A stretch of 64,000 nt of DNA from Candidatus Thalassarchaeum sp. (GTDB lineage: Archaea > Thermoplasmatota > Poseidoniia > Poseidoniales > Thalassarchaeaceae): assembly GCA_016777225.1 (NCBI GenBank), contig JADHRW010000006.1:1-64000 (forward strand), read 5' to 3'. Of this stretch, positions 10,237 through 30,261 are shown piece by piece. Within the stretch, counting starts at the first letter, position 1. Each line of letters opens with the position of its first letter. The notes beneath the pieces are model-generated. The model was not told where the DNA came from. It was given only the letters and a program-made list of their open reading frames with translations, and ran no database searches. Made by a program: the position numbers and the translations under genes.

Positions 10237-11487
10237 ATGGCCTGCCTGACTAGTCTCATGGGAGAGGCCGTGACCACCTGTGATGTACTGGTAATTGGTG
10301 CTGGACCGGGTGGTGGGAACGCTGCTTTACATAGCGCAAGAGCTGGTCTTTCAACTATTTTGATAGAGGATCATGCCGAAATTGGAACACCTGTTCATTG
10401 TGGTGAATGTATCTCAGATGTTGCTTGTGATAATCTAAATCTAGACTTACCTGATCATGTGATTAGTAAGAGAGTACATGGAATTAGAGTTATATTTCCA
10501 GATGGTACTGAAAAGAAATTAACAGAAGAAGGATATGTTCTAGAAAAGCATCTTTTCGAGAGATGGATAGCAGAAGAAGCAGTATCAGCTGGTGCTACAT
10601 TAAATCTAAATCATAAATTGATGAGTATGGAAAAAATGTTCGATGGTGACAAGTTCATTGGTTGGCGTTGTGAAGGTAAAGGAGATCATTTCCCAATTGA
10701 GACTAAAGTTGTAATTGATGCATCAGGAGTTGCTGGAGTTTCTTCTAAAATATTAGAACTCAACCCTCGTCCACAAGTAATTGCAGGTATGCAGTATGAA
10801 ATGCTTGAAGTTCCAACTGATGACTACTTAGATTTCTATATTTGGCCTAAGTATGCTGAGAAAGGTTACGTATGGATGATTCCTAAATGTGACGGTAGAG
10901 CCAATGTCGGCTTAGTCACTGAAGATAAATCTCGAACTAAGAAGGGTCTAGATGAGTTTATTGAAGATACTCATTTCAAAGACTTAGAACAGGTTGCGCC
11001 TCCTTGGAAGCAGAAAGGAAATCCCGCATTTGGTGGTACAATACCAATTTCAGGACCTCATGAGAACACCCATGCAGATGGTTTAATGCTTGTTGGAGAT
11101 GCTGCTGGTTTTACTTCACCGTTATTTGAAGGTGGTTCACATTTAGCTCTGAAATCTGCTGTTTTCGCTGCAGAAACTGCTGCTAAAGCAATTGCATCTG
11201 ATGATGTAACTGCTGATGCATTAGCGGGCTACTCACGGGCATGGAAAAAAGAATTCCCTCCTTATTCTAAGATTTTACGTGGTAAATCGGCATTATTTGA
11301 TTTGTCAGATGATGATATGTCATTGATGGCTCAGTGTTTCCCCGATGAAATGAGTAATATGGGCCCTCATGGTAAATTAGCTGTATGTCTAAAAATATTA
11401 ATTAGAAGACCTGGCCTTTATGCTAGAAAAATAATTCCTGCAATGCTATCTTTTGGATATTCACGTGCCAAGTATTATGGATGGTGA
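10237..11487 (+). CDS. Geranylgeranyl reductase family flavoprotein
   Basis: FAD-dependent reductase that saturates isoprenoid chains of archaeal lipids or of menaquinone. The Rossmann motif VLVIGAGPGGGNAALHSARAG begins about residue 17, TPVHCGECIS matches the family's conserved Cys-containing loop, and LMLVGDAAGFTSPLFEGG is the second FAD-binding motif near residue 288. Length (416) is typical. Met8 (MGEAVTTCDVL, position 10258) is an alternative start. The gene diverges from ubiD and its stop overlaps the CcmF start. Standing between quinone and cytochrome genes, it may act on the menaquinone side chain rather than on membrane lipids; the sequence alone cannot tell. Confidence 0.88.
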   Translation: MACLTSLMGEAVTTCDVLVIGAGPGGGNAALHSARAGLSTILIEDHAEIGTPVHCGECISDVACDNLNLDLPDHVISKRVHGIRVIFPDGTEKKLTEEGYVLEKHLFERWIAEEAVSAGATLNLNHKLMSMEKMFDGDKFIGWRCEGKGDHFPIETKVVIDASGVAGVSSKILELNPRPQVIAGMQYEMLEVPTDDYLDFYIWPKYAEKGYVWMIPKCDGRANVGLVTEDKSRTKKGLDEFIEDTHFKDLEQVAPPWKQKGNPAFGGTIPISGPHENTHADGLMLVGDAAGFTSPLFEGGSHLALKSAVFAAETAAKAIASDDVTADALAGYSRAWKKEFPPYSKILRGKSALFDLSDDDMSLMAQCFPDEMSNMGPHGKLAVCLKILIRRPGLYARKIIPAMLSFGYSRAKYYGW

Positions 11488-13864
11488 TTTCATCCTTTCC
11501 TTTTATGGGCAAATTCTGCTCATATTCGCAATTCTGACAAGTATCAACCAGATTTTTAGGCCAAAAAATGCTGGTATGGGCTTATACAAAAATATCGCTA
11601 TTTTTTCACAGGTTGCTCCATTTTTACTTCTTGTTATAGCATTCATAATTGATGATTCTTCTTTGAAGCTAGTTACTGAATACGGAGGAGCCGATCTTCC
11701 TATTTTATATCGTATATCTGCAGTATGGGGCGGTCGAGCTGGACCCTTGCTGTTATTTGCTGCTTTGATATCAATTGTAACTTGGTTTATGACTGATAAC
11801 GAAGAAATAGATTATGATGTACGAATTATGCATGGATTTACATTAGGTATATTGTTTATTTCTTGGTTTCTAGCACCTTTCGAAGGTTCAGAAGGAGTAA
11901 TTTCTAGCGAATTAAATCCCTTATTACAAACTGATTTGATGGTTATTCATCCACCAATCGTATTCTCTTATTATGCACTTTGTATCGCTACAGCTTCAGT
12001 GGCAATGTCAGGAGTTATTCGTCAGAAATCTGCTAAAGAAATTCACGATGAGCAATTACATTGGGCAAGAGCAGCATTTTTGGTTGGAACATTGGGAATA
12101 GGACTGGGAGGTCTGTGGGCTTACACAGTTCTAGATTGGGGAGGATATTGGGCATGGGATCCTGTTGAAACAGGTTCTATTCTGCCATGGTTTGCTCTTT
12201 TACTGATAATTCATGCAAGATCAACTTCTAATACATCTGCCTCAATAAAAATTTCACCAGCCTTAGGGCTAATTTCAGGAGCTCTTGCTATTCATGCAAC
12301 CTTGGTGACCCGTGCTAATGGTGTTTGGGCTTCAGTACATGCATTTGCGGCGGATGGATTAGGCACTGATAGCCAAGACCCATATATTCGTGTGATGTAT
12401 ATTATCGATGCTAGTCCAATAGGTTTTGAACTTGCTTCTTATGTATTTGCAATATTATTACTAGGCTCATTTGCAGTCTATTTCTTGATTAATCAACAGA
12501 TAAATGATTTTCGTTCTGAAAATAAGAAATTATTGTTTGAAGAAAAAAGAGAATATTCATTTATATTATTGGCAATTCTAATAGGGGTTTCATTTTGGAT
12601 TAGTTCTACTGCAATTACAATTGTTGGTATCTCAATTATGTTATTGTTATTGACTAGTGATTCTAGTAAACCTTCACTCCAATGGGTATTTTTTGGTGTA
12701 ATTCTAATGTTCTATGCCAGCTGGTCTTCATCAGCTACAATTCCTCAAGCAATAGCAGGAATGTCTCCATTTCTTATTATTTGGTTAATTTCTGATGATG
12801 ATGATGATGATTTAGAGTCCCTATTACTTCCTTTCAAATCAGAATCAGTAAGAATGAAGTTTGCTAAAGCAATTCCATGGTATGGAACCTCTGCTTTCCT
12901 TCTTCTTACTTGGTTATTATTAACTGTTGAAATCGATGGAACTAACCTAGAAGCTCACGAATTCTATGGGGCCCCTTTCATTGGATTATTAGCAATAGGT
13001 CTAACGATATATGCGTGGGGTAAGTCAGTAGATATCAAGACTGGAAATATCTTATTTTTTTCTGTTTTTATCATTTCTATACTATTGGGAATTTATTCTG
13101 AGGAATTTAATTTACCTGGTGATTCTTCATTGTTATTCGCTTCGAGTTTTACTCGAGGTTCAGTTTCAATATTCTTGTTAACTTGGATGGCTCTTGCTAT
13201 TCCACCTAATGTTAAACAAGCATATATGACAATTAGTAAGACACTACCCAAAATCAGACAAAATGGGTTATTCGATAAGAAGAACTCCTCTCGTATCCGT
13301 TTATTAGGCTCTCATCTTTCTCATCTTGGAATATTATTACTCTTAGTTGGGCATATATTTACCACGACTTTAATAGATCGTTCAGATCCTTCTCATTTAG
13401 TAACTTTGAGTAGGGATCAACCAATATTACACGACGGTTATGAATTTATTTTCACAGATGTAGAGCTGATTGATATAGAATCTGAAGATTATGATTATTC
13501 AGTCGGTGATGGATATCTTGGTGTTGTTATAGAGATGAAAAAAGATGGTGAGTTAATAGATATTTTACGCCCTGGAATATTAAGATTTGATTCTCCCAGT
13601 GGTCAAGTAACTCCGAGATCGGAACCAGATAGGCATGTGGGTCTATTTGGAGATACAATAATTATTTTAGATATATTCCAATCTAATGATTTGTTAGATG
13701 CAATGATGTTCAGAGAAACTAGTGAAGTAGAAAGAATTCGTGTCACTGTACACGATTTACAGGGTTCTCATGCAGTATGGATTGGTTGGATTCTAATTAT
13801 TATTGGAGGCGGTCTTGCCCTAGCATCAAGTCCAAAATATCGTCGGAAAAGACAAATTAATTGA
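11477..13864 (+). CDS. ccmF: CcmF-like cytochrome c heme-lyase subunit
   Basis: Integral membrane protein that handles heme during attachment to apocytochrome c. About 795 residues with 14 or more hydrophobic segments. The WWD signature appears as DWGGYWAWDPVETGSILPW, the heme-ligand region as VIHPPIVFSYY, and the C-terminal CcmF part contains SHLSHLGILLLLVGH. The ATG at 11477 overlaps the end of the reductase gene; an earlier in-frame ATG exists at 11453. A run of six GAT codons (12794-12811) gives a poly-Asp loop between membrane segments. Other Ccm proteins are not nearby, but secreted proteins with Cys-His heme-type motifs are encoded at 25.9-29.7 kb and are possible substrates. Confidence 0.92.
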   Translation: MDGDFILSFYGQILLIFAILTSINQIFRPKNAGMGLYKNIAIFSQVAPFLLLVIAFIIDDSSLKLVTEYGGADLPILYRISAVWGGRAGPLLLFAALISIVTWFMTDNEEIDYDVRIMHGFTLGILFISWFLAPFEGSEGVISSELNPLLQTDLMVIHPPIVFSYYALCIATASVAMSGVIRQKSAKEIHDEQLHWARAAFLVGTLGIGLGGLWAYTVLDWGGYWAWDPVETGSILPWFALLLIIHARSTSNTSASIKISPALGLISGALAIHATLVTRANGVWASVHAFAADGLGTDSQDPYIRVMYIIDASPIGFELASYVFAILLLGSFAVYFLINQQINDFRSENKKLLFEEKREYSFILLAILIGVSFWISSTAITIVGISIMLLLLTSDSSKPSLQWVFFGVILMFYASWSSSATIPQAIAGMSPFLIIWLISDDDDDDLESLLLPFKSESVRMKFAKAIPWYGTSAFLLLTWLLLTVEIDGTNLEAHEFYGAPFIGLLAIGLTIYAWGKSVDIKTGNILFFSVFIISILLGIYSEEFNLPGDSSLLFASSFTRGSVSIFLLTWMALAIPPNVKQAYMTISKTLPKIRQNGLFDKKNSSRIRLLGSHLSHLGILLLLVGHIFTTTLIDRSDPSHLVTLSRDQPILHDGYEFIFTDVELIDIESEDYDYSVGDGYLGVVIEMKKDGELIDILRPGILRFDSPSGQVTPRSEPDRHVGLFGDTIIILDIFQSNDLLDAMMFRETSEVERIRVTVHDLQGSHAVWIGWILIIIGGGLALASSPKYRRKRQIN

Positions 13865-25946: not shown

Positions 25947-28577
25947 ATGATGCGCCGGCACCTAGCAGTATTTCTTGTTGTTTTATTCTTGATTTCCACT
26001 GCTCAAACGGTTCAATCTAATTCCTCGGGTAAAACAGGAAGTTCATCTTCAGGTTGTACTTGTCATGGTGCTAGTTCATCCATGAGTGTCTCACTAAACG
26101 GGCTTCCATCTTCAGGATATAGTGGAAATACCGCTTACAGCCTTTCATGGGATGGTGGGCCACATATTCCTGGTTCAGGTGGATTCAACATTATTGCAAC
26201 AACTACGAGCGGGCAGGGATACATGGGTACATGGAGTAGTTTAGGCTCTAATGTGAAGCAGGTTGGTAGTGAATTAACACATGACGGGACATCATCTCGT
26301 TCTTGGTCTGCAGTCTGGACATCTCCTTCTTCAGGTTCTGGTACAGTGGTATTCAATCTCGCAGTACTTTATGGAAATGGTAATGGTAATAATAATGGCG
26401 ATAATTGGGACACTGGTTCTTGGAACTTACAGGAAATCTCCGGCAGTACTAATAATCCACCAAATGCTACAAATGTACATTATGTTCCATCAAATCCGAC
26501 TAAGGAAACTGGATTAGGTGTAGAATATGATTTCAATGATGAAGATGGTAATTCTGAACAAGGAACTACAATTCGATGGTTCCGAGATGGCCTACAGATA
26601 GCACAAATTAATGATATGAAGAATGTTCCTGATGTTTGGATTTCAAAGAATCAGCAATGGAGAGTAGAGGTAACCCCTTCTGATGGTGAAGATGATGGTG
26701 AGGTTGTATCATTGAATCCCGTAATAATAGAAAATACAATTCCCATTGCACGCAATCTTGAGTTGGCTCCAGAAGCTCCACTAGATACTGATAATTTAGA
26801 ACTAGATTATGATTATTTTGACTTAGATAGTGACAATCAACAAGATTCTGAAATACGTTGGTATCTTGATGGAGTTAGAATAACAGATCTTGATGATACT
26901 CTTACAGTTTCATCTTTGATGATTCGCTCAGGTGATGAATGGGAGGCACGAATCACACCTAATGATGGGACCTCTTTTGGTTTGACAAAATCTACTGGAA
27001 TAATCATTATTGGTTCATCAAATAATGCCCCTACTGCAAACGCCTATATTTCTCAAGGTTCTAATGCATATACTGATGATAACTTACAAGTCGTAGTCGG
27101 ATGGTTCGATTCAGATGGAGACGACCTTGCTGGAACGGAGATAATTTGGTATCGTGATGGAATACAAATATCGGCATTTAATGATTTAACATGGGTAACT
27201 TCAGATGCAACTTCAAAGGAAGAAGTATGGTATGCTAGTGTTCGAGTATCGGATTCTTTGATTTGGTCAGAATGGGTTAATGCAGACAGTATTACTATAC
27301 TCAATAGTCCTCCTGAAGTGACTTCTATATCCATGATTCCTGAAGGCACTTTAATCGCGAATCAAGATCTTTCTGTTGAATGGGAACATTTTGACTTAGA
27401 TGGAGATTTAGAATCTGGTAGTGAAATTTATTGGTGGGTAAATGGTGAAAGAATCTCCGAATTTGATGGATTAATTACAATATCTTCAGAACATGTATTT
27501 CGCGATCAACATTGGTCTGTAGAAGTAATCCCTCGTGATGGAGACAGTTTAGGTAGCGGAATGACTACTCAATCAAGAGTCATCGAAAATGCTGCGCCTG
27601 AACAACCAATCATCAAATTAGGTGCCGGAATATCTGGTTATTTAGGAGAACCTTCTTCATTTCCAGAGCTTGAAGTTCCTAATTCTCTTGAGTCACTTGT
27701 CTTACTGTCCTCATCTATTGATCCCGATGATGAACCCCTATTTTTTGATGTAGCTTGGTATCGCAATGGATATCAAGTTCCAGATTTAGATGATCAATCA
27801 ATAATTTCATCTGATAGATTAGAACCAGGTCAAGTTTGGCAAGTTACAGTAACAGCTAGAGATCCTTGGGGATTAATCAGTCAAGCTTCAGAAACTGTAA
27901 CAATTTCTAATTTACCACCCATGCCTTTGTGGTCTACAATTCCCGAAGTATCTCTATCAGGATCAATGATAAAATTCGATGGAACATCTTCTTTTGATTC
28001 AGATGGCTCAATCATTAGTTGGTTTTGGCAAATAAATAGTCTATCTTATTCAGGTTCTAATATTGAAGTTCTTCTTGGTGAAGGTACTCATTCTGTTAAA
28101 TTAACAGTTACCGATGATTTAGATTCTTCAGTTACTATACAAGATGTCTTGGTCCTAGGGCCTGTTCCAATGGTTAATTCATTACTCGGAGAAATCAGTG
28201 GAACAGATGTAGAATTGTCATGGATAAGTAATGCAGATGAATATAGAATATATCTTTCTTCATCCCCAACTTTATCTTTAGAAAATATGAAGCTCGTGGA
28301 CGTAACTACTGAAAATAGTTGGAGCCATACTGCCCCAATTGCTTCCGATTTATATTATGCAGTTACCCAGATTATAGATGGGCATGAAATACTTTGGTTA
28401 GAAAATGGAACTAATATGGTTAATATTGATGCATCCGCAGTTAGTAGTTCAGTTGACGATTCACCGACAGGATCTATCACAGTTCTATCTATACCACTGT
28501 CAATAATTTTCCTAATTTTTGCCCTATCAAGTATTATATTAAATCTGCAAATTAGAAAAAGGAGGTCGTTATTATGA
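25947..28577 (+). CDS. Secreted, membrane-anchored Ig/PKD-repeat protein with an N-terminal CxxCH motif
   Basis: An 876-residue surface protein. A signal peptide (about 1-24) is followed by GCTCHG, a CxxCH heme-c attachment motif at residues 37-40, in a Gly/Ser-rich module to about 165 that resembles the choice-of-anchor V/reeler-like domain. Four to five repeats of about 95 residues follow (170-660), each with a W-Y/F-x-D/N-G-x-x-I core and an Asp-rich loop, then a PKD-like domain (SFDSDGSIISWFWQI), an Fn3-like domain (ELSWISNADEYRIYLS) and a C-terminal membrane helix (about 845-868) with basic tail. If heme is bound, this would be a single-heme surface electron carrier; CxxCH alone is not proof. 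Its stop overlaps the next start (ATGA). Confidence 0.75.
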   Translation: MMRRHLAVFLVVLFLISTAQTVQSNSSGKTGSSSSGCTCHGASSSMSVSLNGLPSSGYSGNTAYSLSWDGGPHIPGSGGFNIIATTTSGQGYMGTWSSLGSNVKQVGSELTHDGTSSRSWSAVWTSPSSGSGTVVFNLAVLYGNGNGNNNGDNWDTGSWNLQEISGSTNNPPNATNVHYVPSNPTKETGLGVEYDFNDEDGNSEQGTTIRWFRDGLQIAQINDMKNVPDVWISKNQQWRVEVTPSDGEDDGEVVSLNPVIIENTIPIARNLELAPEAPLDTDNLELDYDYFDLDSDNQQDSEIRWYLDGVRITDLDDTLTVSSLMIRSGDEWEARITPNDGTSFGLTKSTGIIIIGSSNNAPTANAYISQGSNAYTDDNLQVVVGWFDSDGDDLAGTEIIWYRDGIQISAFNDLTWVTSDATSKEEVWYASVRVSDSLIWSEWVNADSITILNSPPEVTSISMIPEGTLIANQDLSVEWEHFDLDGDLESGSEIYWWVNGERISEFDGLITISSEHVFRDQHWSVEVIPRDGDSLGSGMTTQSRVIENAAPEQPIIKLGAGISGYLGEPSSFPELEVPNSLESLVLLSSSIDPDDEPLFFDVAWYRNGYQVPDLDDQSIISSDRLEPGQVWQVTVTARDPWGLISQASETVTISNLPPMPLWSTIPEVSLSGSMIKFDGTSSFDSDGSIISWFWQINSLSYSGSNIEVLLGEGTHSVKLTVTDDLDSSVTIQDVLVLGPVPMVNSLLGEISGTDVELSWISNADEYRIYLSSSPTLSLENMKLVDVTTENSWSHTAPIASDLYYAVTQIIDGHEILWLENGTNMVNIDASAVSSSVDDSPTGSITVLSIPLSIIFLIFALSSIILNLQIRKRRSLL

Positions 28578-29698
28578 AATCTAGAATTTTAGTTCTCAGT
28601 TTAATTCTAACTTTACTTTTAGCAACTTCTTCAGGTGTCGCAAATCCTGGAGGGAAAGGAGATAGTAACAGAGACTACACCTGTGGTGGTTCTTGTCATG
28701 GTGACCCGAGCCTTTCTTCGCCTTCATCAGCAATTATTGATGTAGATATTCCATCTACTGTTTATTCTAGTACAACTGCTGAAGTATCTGTGTCCATTAG
28801 TAATTTAGATACATCCGATAATGGCTTAGTTGGTATATTCTTACTTGGTTCCAAGAATGGAAATAGCGACCATCCAGAGGACTATGGATGGGCTATAATA
28901 CAAGATCCAAATGGGGGTTCGTCAAATTATATTGAAGCAGTATCTTCAGATAATCAAGTGACAGTTAGTTGGGTTCTATTAGTTCCAGATGATTTAGGAA
29001 CAAAGGAAATTTATGTTTCAATACAACATGGTAGTTACTATAATCATAATAATAAGGCATTTATTGGTGAAACTGACGCTATAGTCGTAAATATTGAGCC
29101 TATTCCAGAAAACTATCCAACTCTTGCTGAAGGTTGGACGTCTCCCGAAGAAAGAATCTCAGGAGATTCATCGCCCATTACAATTAGAACTGTTAATACT
29201 GAGTCTCTTACTGTTTATTGGAGACTCTCGGGTGAGACGAGTTCTCATGAAGCAACTGTAGATATGGTAGCTGACCAAGAATGGGAAGTATCACTCCCAG
29301 CAACTCTTGGAGATACAAGGATTGAATATCAGATAATTGCATCAATGGATGAATTCAGTAATCAGATGCCATGGTTATCTATCGGCACTTCTGAACCATA
29401 TTTTGATGGTACATCTTTAGGCGCTAAACTACAATCCGTTGCTTTCATACTAATAATTCTTGGATTTATGCTTTCATTACAAACTTGGTTTGCACCGAGA
29501 GGAGTTAAGAAATCAATAGATCATACAACTGTGGTTGAGGAATCAATTGTCAGTAAAAAGACAGAGGAGTCTACTTCTGAACCAGATAGTGATTATTGGT
29601 CTAGATTAATAAAATCTGATGATAATCCGGGTTGGTTATGGGACCCAGTTGAAAATGAATGGGTTGCTGACCCGAATCTTTCAGGAGGCGAGCAGTAA
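28574..29698 (+). CDS. Secreted, membrane-anchored protein with a CxxxCH heme-like motif
   Basis: A 374-residue protein. The signal peptide (about 1-23) is followed by DYTCGGSCHGD, a C-x3-C-H variant of the heme-c motif at residues 37-42, close to the place of CxxCH in the upstream protein. A beta-rich extracellular region follows (about 50-280), containing GWAIIQDPNGGSS and a second Ig-like domain, then a membrane helix (about 285-305) and a cytosolic acidic tail with a WLWDPVENEWV segment near the C-terminus. It overlaps both neighbours (ATGA, TAATG), so all three genes form one coupled unit. The two paralogous N-termini suggest paired carriers; heme attachment to the x3 spacing is uncertain. 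Confidence 0.72.
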   Translation: MKSRILVLSLILTLLLATSSGVANPGGKGDSNRDYTCGGSCHGDPSLSSPSSAIIDVDIPSTVYSSTTAEVSVSISNLDTSDNGLVGIFLLGSKNGNSDHPEDYGWAIIQDPNGGSSNYIEAVSSDNQVTVSWVLLVPDDLGTKEIYVSIQHGSYYNHNNKAFIGETDAIVVNIEPIPENYPTLAEGWTSPEERISGDSSPITIRTVNTESLTVYWRLSGETSSHEATVDMVADQEWEVSLPATLGDTRIEYQIIASMDEFSNQMPWLSIGTSEPYFDGTSLGAKLQSVAFILIILGFMLSLQTWFAPRGVKKSIDHTTVVEESIVSKKTEESTSEPDSDYWSRLIKSDDNPGWLWDPVENEWVADPNLSGGEQ

Positions 29699-30261
29699 TG
29701 TATGCAGTAACATTCCATCATATGGTGGTAGGACTTGCAGCTGGTTCGGGTACTCTGATGGGAATCTGTGCATTTTTGGCATGGCTGGCTTCATATATAT
29801 CTAATCTTAAATCTTCTAAATCAACTTTAGATAAGGCGTCTTATGCTGCCTCAATTCTTACCTTGATTACTCTTCCTTTAGCTATGCTTTCCGGATACTA
29901 TTCTGTTTCAGATCCATCAGGAAGTGCTATATTATACAATAAATTTATTTTCTCAGGAATTGCAATTGGCTTTACCTTATCCTACATTATTGGGAGAAGA
30001 AGATTTGGCTCTGATATGTGGAATCATTCTGCCTTGGCTAATATACAGATGTTATCTGCTTTATTCGGTTTAACAGCGATTATGATTTTAGGATCTATTG
30101 GCTCAAAAATAACACTGGGTGAATCTACTCTTGATATCTTTCCATTTTGGCCCGAATTTATGAATTCAATTGTCATCAATCAATGGATTAGTTTATCTCT
30201 TCTCTTGATAGGACTAACATCAGTAATATTTTCATTTAGAATTGTAGATTCATCAGCATGA
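29698..30261 (+). CDS. Small multi-pass membrane protein of the heme-motif operon
   Basis: A 187-residue protein with five predicted membrane helices. The first helix begins with FHHMVVGLAAGSG (His7, His8), and His111 lies near the start of a later helix in MWNHSALANIQ. Such histidines at helix ends could ligate b-type heme or bind quinol, as in small cytochrome-b561-like or DUF2231-like proteins, but I cannot assign a family. Its ATG overlaps the stop of the upstream gene. If it is a membrane cytochrome b, the operon would link the quinone pool to external single-heme domains; this is inference. Confidence 0.6.
   Translation: MYAVTFHHMVVGLAAGSGTLMGICAFLAWLASYISNLKSSKSTLDKASYAASILTLITLPLAMLSGYYSVSDPSGSAILYNKFIFSGIAIGFTLSYIIGRRRFGSDMWNHSALANIQMLSALFGLTAIMILGSIGSKITLGESTLDIFPFWPEFMNSIVINQWISLSLLLIGLTSVIFSFRIVDSSA

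Follow-up and report, generated by a model that had tools for sequence, protein, structure and literature searches.

Cytochrome f is a beta-sandwich protein with an N-terminal heme motif and a C-terminal anchor, and it works in a complex with a Rieske protein and cytochrome b. The c-type cytochromes matured by the Ccm system (System I) share a canonical CxxCH motif. A c-type heme motif can also sit on an extracytoplasmic fold that is not a cytochrome, as described for the heme-containing Cache domain (DUF3365/Tll0287) (PMC12889525). The Reeler domain of animals, which is joined with DOMON and cytochrome b561 in SDR2/FRRS1-type proteins, has no known redox role (PMC10691727). Homologous to it is choice-of-anchor V (NCBIfam NF041895), a family whose name assigns no function and whose members are also found in Bacteroidota, Acidobacteria, Gemmatimonadetes, Planctomycetota and others. 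In the part of the literature covered by our search, neither the name choice-of-anchor V nor a link of prokaryotic Reeler-like domains to cytochrome c was found.

The locus described here lies in the window, by which we mean the whole 64,000-nucleotide stretch of DNA that was analysed, from a Candidatus Thalassarchaeum genome of 1.48 Mb in 17 contigs. It encodes two proteins, A and B, that open with the same domain, choice-of-anchor V, and a membrane protein, C. With the c-type cytochromes of System I, A and B share a Cys...Cys-His triad outside the membrane, the Ccm genes and respiratory partners; they differ in having a Reeler-like beta-sandwich and cysteines that are separated by 1 to 6 residues, and their heme is predicted. 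The canonical CxxCH is found in neither, A having CxCH and B CxxxCH. The Cache domain has an unrelated fold and the canonical CxxCH, and its heme was proven experimentally, whereas that of A and B is a prediction. The likeness to cytochrome f is drawn from how it works; no cytochrome f was found among the profile matches at E up to 1 or among the 50 listed matches of a Foldseek search, which was swamped by generic Ig folds.

The A-B-C operon and its products

Genes A (25947–28577, 876 aa), B (28574–29698, 374 aa) and C (29698–30261, 187 aa) are three open reading frames on the + strand of the window, with an overlap of 4 bp between A and B and of 1 bp between B and C, in line with the coupling described in a first-pass annotation of this DNA. 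About 40 Poseidoniales-like genomes from two families keep the three genes as an operon, and orthologs of A occur in both families. In 40 loci that were read, the order A-B-C recurred nearly everywhere the locus was complete, the genes overlapping or almost touching. Among 60 relatives, orthologs of C were found in 42 and those of B in 51, the latter tally including matches to the tail of B alone; B and C are apparently absent from three genera (g2, g5 and g11). In two loci (L073 and L042) the B ortholog is split into pieces, probably by sequence errors in the draft assemblies.

Protein A is predicted to be secreted. Its choice-of-anchor V (Reeler-like) domain is N-terminal and is followed by Ig/PKD-like repeats; the membrane segment at its C-terminus is a hydrophobic stretch of the translation at approximately 28476–28550 (+). 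The domain occupies residues 12–158 (25980–26420, +); it matches NF041895 with 71.9 bits (E 5.8e-20), above the curated cut-off of 42 bits, and was modelled as a beta-sandwich with a pLDDT of 91.1. The Ig/PKD repeats that had been annotated next to it agree with a PKD-like domain in A, the PKD_4 match being sub-threshold (E 5.4e-5). Protein B has a divergent choice-of-anchor V domain, an Ig-like region, one membrane segment and a tail with a WLWDP motif. Both N-termini are hydrophobic and signal-like, as expected of the secreted proteins proposed at first pass. The C-terminal anchors proposed along with them apply to A and not to B, since in B a further 70 aa or so come after the membrane segment, as a tail. 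Against NF041895 the domain of B scores 20.8 bits (E 3.2e-4), under the 42-bit cut-off, and the B profile aligns with the A-type domain profile at E 8.4e-7; as judged from sequence, the domain is a divergent relative of choice-of-anchor V. In relatives, the tail of B at 29590–29695 in the window (PGWLWDPVENEWVADP) also closes very long proteins (about 1,400–1,500 aa), and in the other family B terminates instead in a PPGWTMEQWEYYG-type tail.

Protein C was modelled with five membrane helices (pLDDT 82.9, pTM 0.77), as had been annotated, and the distribution of charges in its loops places the N-terminus outside. The accompanying description of C as His-rich was not upheld, in that His7 (29716–29718, +), on the predicted outer face, is the sole invariant histidine; it is kept in 39/39 orthologs and also in the C homolog that lies beside a B gene at locus L186 (E 1.7e-24), whereas H8 and H110 are not conserved. 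The other invariant residues are G16, P60, G66, N81, K82, G91, G135 and S165, and D45, R100, S133 and E142 are nearly so. The model had been suggested as a place to look for a heme site, and a heme b or di-heme reading of C is unsupported because C keeps this single histidine. Like C, cytochrome b561 and DUF2231 are small multi-helix membrane proteins, but an assignment to either rests on weak matches of single members; the b561-type set of conserved heme-ligating histidines is missing from C, and a Foldseek search with the C model returned no PDB match at E < 0.001, and thus no recognisable fold relative. What the conserved residues of the outer face (H7, N81, K82 and E142) suggest is compatibility with a quinol or docking site, and a quinol role for C is a tentative and rather doubtful proposal.

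The Reeler-like domain and its conserved triad

The relationship of the A domain to Reeler is best seen with profiles. The A-type profile matched the Reelin-N domain of F-spondin (Spondin-1; PDB 2zot and 2zou) at E 3.4e-7, the matched part of F-spondin beginning after the CxnCH region, and the Pfam Reeler profile (PF02014, Reelin-N) matched 25/46 family members with a best E of 2.6e-9, so that homology to the domain family of A and B is detectable; PF02014 matched neither the full A protein nor its isolated domain. Foldseek with the model of the A domain returned generic Ig-like sandwiches only, and the sequence profile was here more telling than the fold search. A plasmid search with a hand-written consensus of the domain gave no match.

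The first-pass annotation had read a CxxCH motif in A. This was a misreading: the sequence at 26055–26066 (+) is C37-T-C39-H40, which rules out the canonical motif, and CxCH is found in 34/36 orthologs of A, the other two having CX4CH. The CxxxCH of B, in turn, was read correctly as C37-GGS-C41-H42 (28682–28699, +), and it is kept in 40/40 orthologs. A second conserved histidine, the candidate distal ligand, was found in each protein: H112 of A (26280–26282, +; invariant column H88 of alignment A2) and H152 of B (29027–29029, +; invariant column H130 of alignment A4).

Among 154 copies of the domain from Archaea and Bacteria, every readable one has the triad, and the Cys-His motifs on which the first-pass annotation had staked its reading are conserved in homologues. 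By profile-based count, the second cysteine and its histidine are found in 101/101 A-type and 53/53 readable B-type copies, and the second histidine in 95/101 and 50/53, or about 94% overall. The loop between the cysteines is free, at 1 to 6 residues, while the triad residues are fixed. In a non-redundant tally, the archaeal A-type copies had spacings of 1 (69 copies), 2 (3) and 4 (5), and the B-type copies of 3 (50), 1 (2) and 5 (1), with one more copy masked by N; the bacterial copies had spacings of 1 (1), 2 (9), 3 (1), 4 (10), 5 (1) and 6 (1), although these were gathered with a hand-written bacterial-style consensus in which one of six patterns is EGTCTSCH, which may favour CxxCH. Together with the recurrent order of A, B and C, this constancy of the triad in readable copies makes the first observation more than chance.

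The bacterial members share the C...CH signature with A and B, while the archaeal ones are mostly CxCH and several of them are fused to respiratory subunits. One Acidimicrobiales protein (locus L155) combines a choice-of-anchor V domain (CASCH) with a PKD-like stretch and three CxxCHG segments that resemble ordinary cytochrome c domains. Some other bacterial members are plain surface proteins. These last would suit an account in which a structural disulfide joins the two cysteines, the domain serves in adhesion or as a scaffold, and the operon encodes a surface complex with no redox function. The homology to Reeler points the same way, cysteines being so used in other Reeler-family and surface proteins, as do the Ig/PKD repeats, and a variable spacing is easier to reconcile with a disulfide than with heme attachment. 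Nevertheless, we consider a structural disulfide quite improbable: the histidine beside the second cysteine is never lost, and a loop of one residue between two cysteines is unfavourable for a disulfide. It also leaves unexplained the respiratory fusions and the link to Ccm that are described below.

Respiratory partners and cytochrome c maturation

The source genome has four NF041895 copies, and two of them lie among respiratory genes. On contig C17 (L174:7687-10059), a protein of 791 aa joins an N-terminal choice-of-anchor V domain (CNCH) to COX1 (E 1.4e-141), and its gene sits between those of COX2 and COX3. Matches to the domain and to COX1 share long reading frames across Poseidoniia (for example on contig C4 of genome G031 and contig C34 of G173), and the fusion looks general in this class. 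On contig C7 (L172:8252-14030), a choice-of-anchor V protein of 270 aa with CTCH and one membrane helix heads an operon that continues with DUF7318, a Rieske-type protein, cytochrome b and an Fe-S protein; it might occupy the position expected of cytochrome c1. Finding the same domain in a respiratory oxidase and in a quinol-oxidising complex suggests that it replaces ordinary cytochrome c.

Beyond Poseidoniales, the B-type domain is found in similar company. It is fused through Ig-like repeats to cytochrome b in one locus (L189:788-3610), and in another it is fused to NrfD beside a molybdopterin oxidoreductase (L187:492-2783). As cytochrome b and NrfD are membrane proteins that interact with quinones, these fusions suggest that C is a similar partner for B. 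At L186 the adjoining homologs of B and C lie next to an octaheme cytochrome c, with genes for CcmF, CcmE, CcmC, CcmB and a CcmA-type ATPase also among the neighbours, and at L184 and L185 a B-type gene is followed by that of an Fe-S membrane protein and then by a ccmF-type gene.

Such neighbourhoods could also be read to mean that B and C are biogenesis factors rather than carriers, handling heme or aiding its attachment to the unusual CxnCH sites, and the invariant histidine on the outer face of C would fit this as well. In Poseidoniales, however, the A-B-C operon does not adjoin the ccm genes, some genera seemingly without B and C still keep Ccm, and the proteins to which B-type domains are fused, cytochrome b and NrfD, are not biogenesis proteins. 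The repeat stalk of A would be unexpected too. Of the accounts weighed here, biogenesis is the one to which we give the least credence.

The connection with Ccm extends well beyond these loci. The window itself has a CcmF-type cytochrome c assembly gene at 11453–13864 (+; PF01578, E 3.5e-21), as the first-pass annotation had stated, and the maturation genes of the source genome comprise PF01578 matches on contigs C3 and C8 and CcmE on C7. In a set of 293 genomes of the phylum, the domain and PF01578 are both present in 88/88 Poseidoniia. Outside Poseidoniia, PF01578 was found in 18/18 genomes with a strong domain match (E below 1e-6) versus 21/187 others (p 2e-15, shared ancestry uncorrected). 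Having an oxidase does not explain this link, since among the COX1-positive genomes outside Poseidoniia the domain is present in 8/13 with Ccm versus 0/36 without (p 3e-6, shared ancestry again uncorrected); an aerobic lifestyle is thus insufficient as the sole cause. Among the genomes of the loci gathered with the bacterial-style consensus, PF01578 is present in 18/20, the other two being drafts of unknown completeness, so that this count carries no weight. CcmE, which is short and divergent, was dropped as a strict marker, as it is mostly unmatched in one genus: its match is missing in 6/7 genomes of g9 (G020, G030, G188, G238, G284 and G302), which retain CcmF/CcmC and the domain, and also the operon in the two that were examined for it (G020 and G030). 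The profile of the cbb3-type cytochrome c (PF13442) matched in 0/146 Poseidoniia genomes, A and B included, while seven control genomes did match; with Ccm present and PF13442 absent, Ccm appears to be kept in Poseidoniia without that usual substrate.

The same comparisons bear on the nature of the cofactor. Two cysteines and two histidines could bind copper or another non-heme metal, in which case the domain would still be a redox carrier and A-B-C would still transfer electrons. A conserved Cys2His2 set whose cysteines are joined by a free loop is what such a site might look like, and the fusions suit any carrier; copper proteins, too, act as carriers for oxidases and quinol-oxidising complexes. 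Nonetheless, the domain tracks Ccm and not COX1, as no COX1-positive genome without Ccm carries it (0/36), and ccm genes adjoin B-type genes. A non-heme metal is therefore unlikely, if less so than a structural disulfide. Covalent heme is favoured because the triad, the second histidine and the link to Ccm all fit it.

A proposed electron-transfer complex on the outer cell face

The simplest account of the domain is that of an extracytoplasmic electron carrier, and that it is a redox carrier of some kind we hold with considerable confidence. The heme itself is a step less secure. In the literature that was searched we found no description of CxCH as a heme site, and to our knowledge heme on CxCH would be unprecedented. 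A cysteine spacing of 1 to 6 residues is unlike that of c-type cytochromes and speaks against heme; altered cysteine spacing has been found to disturb attachment by Ccm (PMC3601427), and odd heme motifs have been described with dedicated lyases (PMC6976685). The missing CcmE match in most g9 genomes, which keep the domain, counts against heme as well. Weighing both sides, we regard covalent heme on the domains of A and B as rather likely.

We propose that A, B and C assemble into an electron-transfer complex that is anchored in the membrane and lies on the outer face of the cell. Its electron carriers would be the domains with which A and B begin, members of the Reeler-like beta-sandwich family. 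In each of them the cysteine pair and the histidine next to it (CxCH in A, CxxxCH in B) would most likely hold a heme that the Ccm system attaches covalently, with the second conserved histidine as the likely distal ligand. C would be the membrane partner, with H7, N81, K82 and E142 on its outer face as a quinol or docking site. Electrons could then pass from C to B and from there to A; the Ig/PKD-like repeats would hold the carrier domain of A off the membrane, where a partner outside the cell could be within its reach. Heme as the cofactor, the path through C, B and A, and the direction in which electrons move along it are our inferences. Taken as a whole, an electron-transfer complex with covalent heme is somewhat better supported than not. 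The idea of an undescribed electron-transfer complex facing outward was already raised in the first-pass annotation; it has gained from the fusions to COX1, cytochrome b and NrfD, from the ccm neighbours and from the tracking of Ccm, and has had to give up the motif it assigned to A and the histidines it assigned to C.

The planktonic Poseidoniales (Marine Group II archaea) are abundant in the surface waters of the ocean and uncultured. With a domain in the places where one would look for cytochrome c1 and cytochrome c, there is a direct and testable answer to the report that their electron transport chain lacks a canonical bc1 complex (PMC6336850). It is possible, if a little more doubtful than not, that Poseidoniales respire aerobically with no ordinary cytochrome c or c1, that a Reeler-fold domain with covalent heme on CxCH does both jobs, fused to COX1 in one place and heading the Rieske/cytochrome b operon in the other, that A-B-C extends this chemistry to the cell surface, and that the animal Reeler domain shares its ancestry with a prokaryotic respiratory heme domain. 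Motif scans for CxxCH overlook most archaeal members of this domain class. If heme is indeed attached through CxCH, the range of sites that Ccm can modify would be widened and a new fold would be added to the c-type cytochromes; if the reading as a whole is true, the c-type electron carriers would gain both a fold and a motif class that are new to them, and the finding would suggest that the Reeler domain of animal proteins has redox ancestors.
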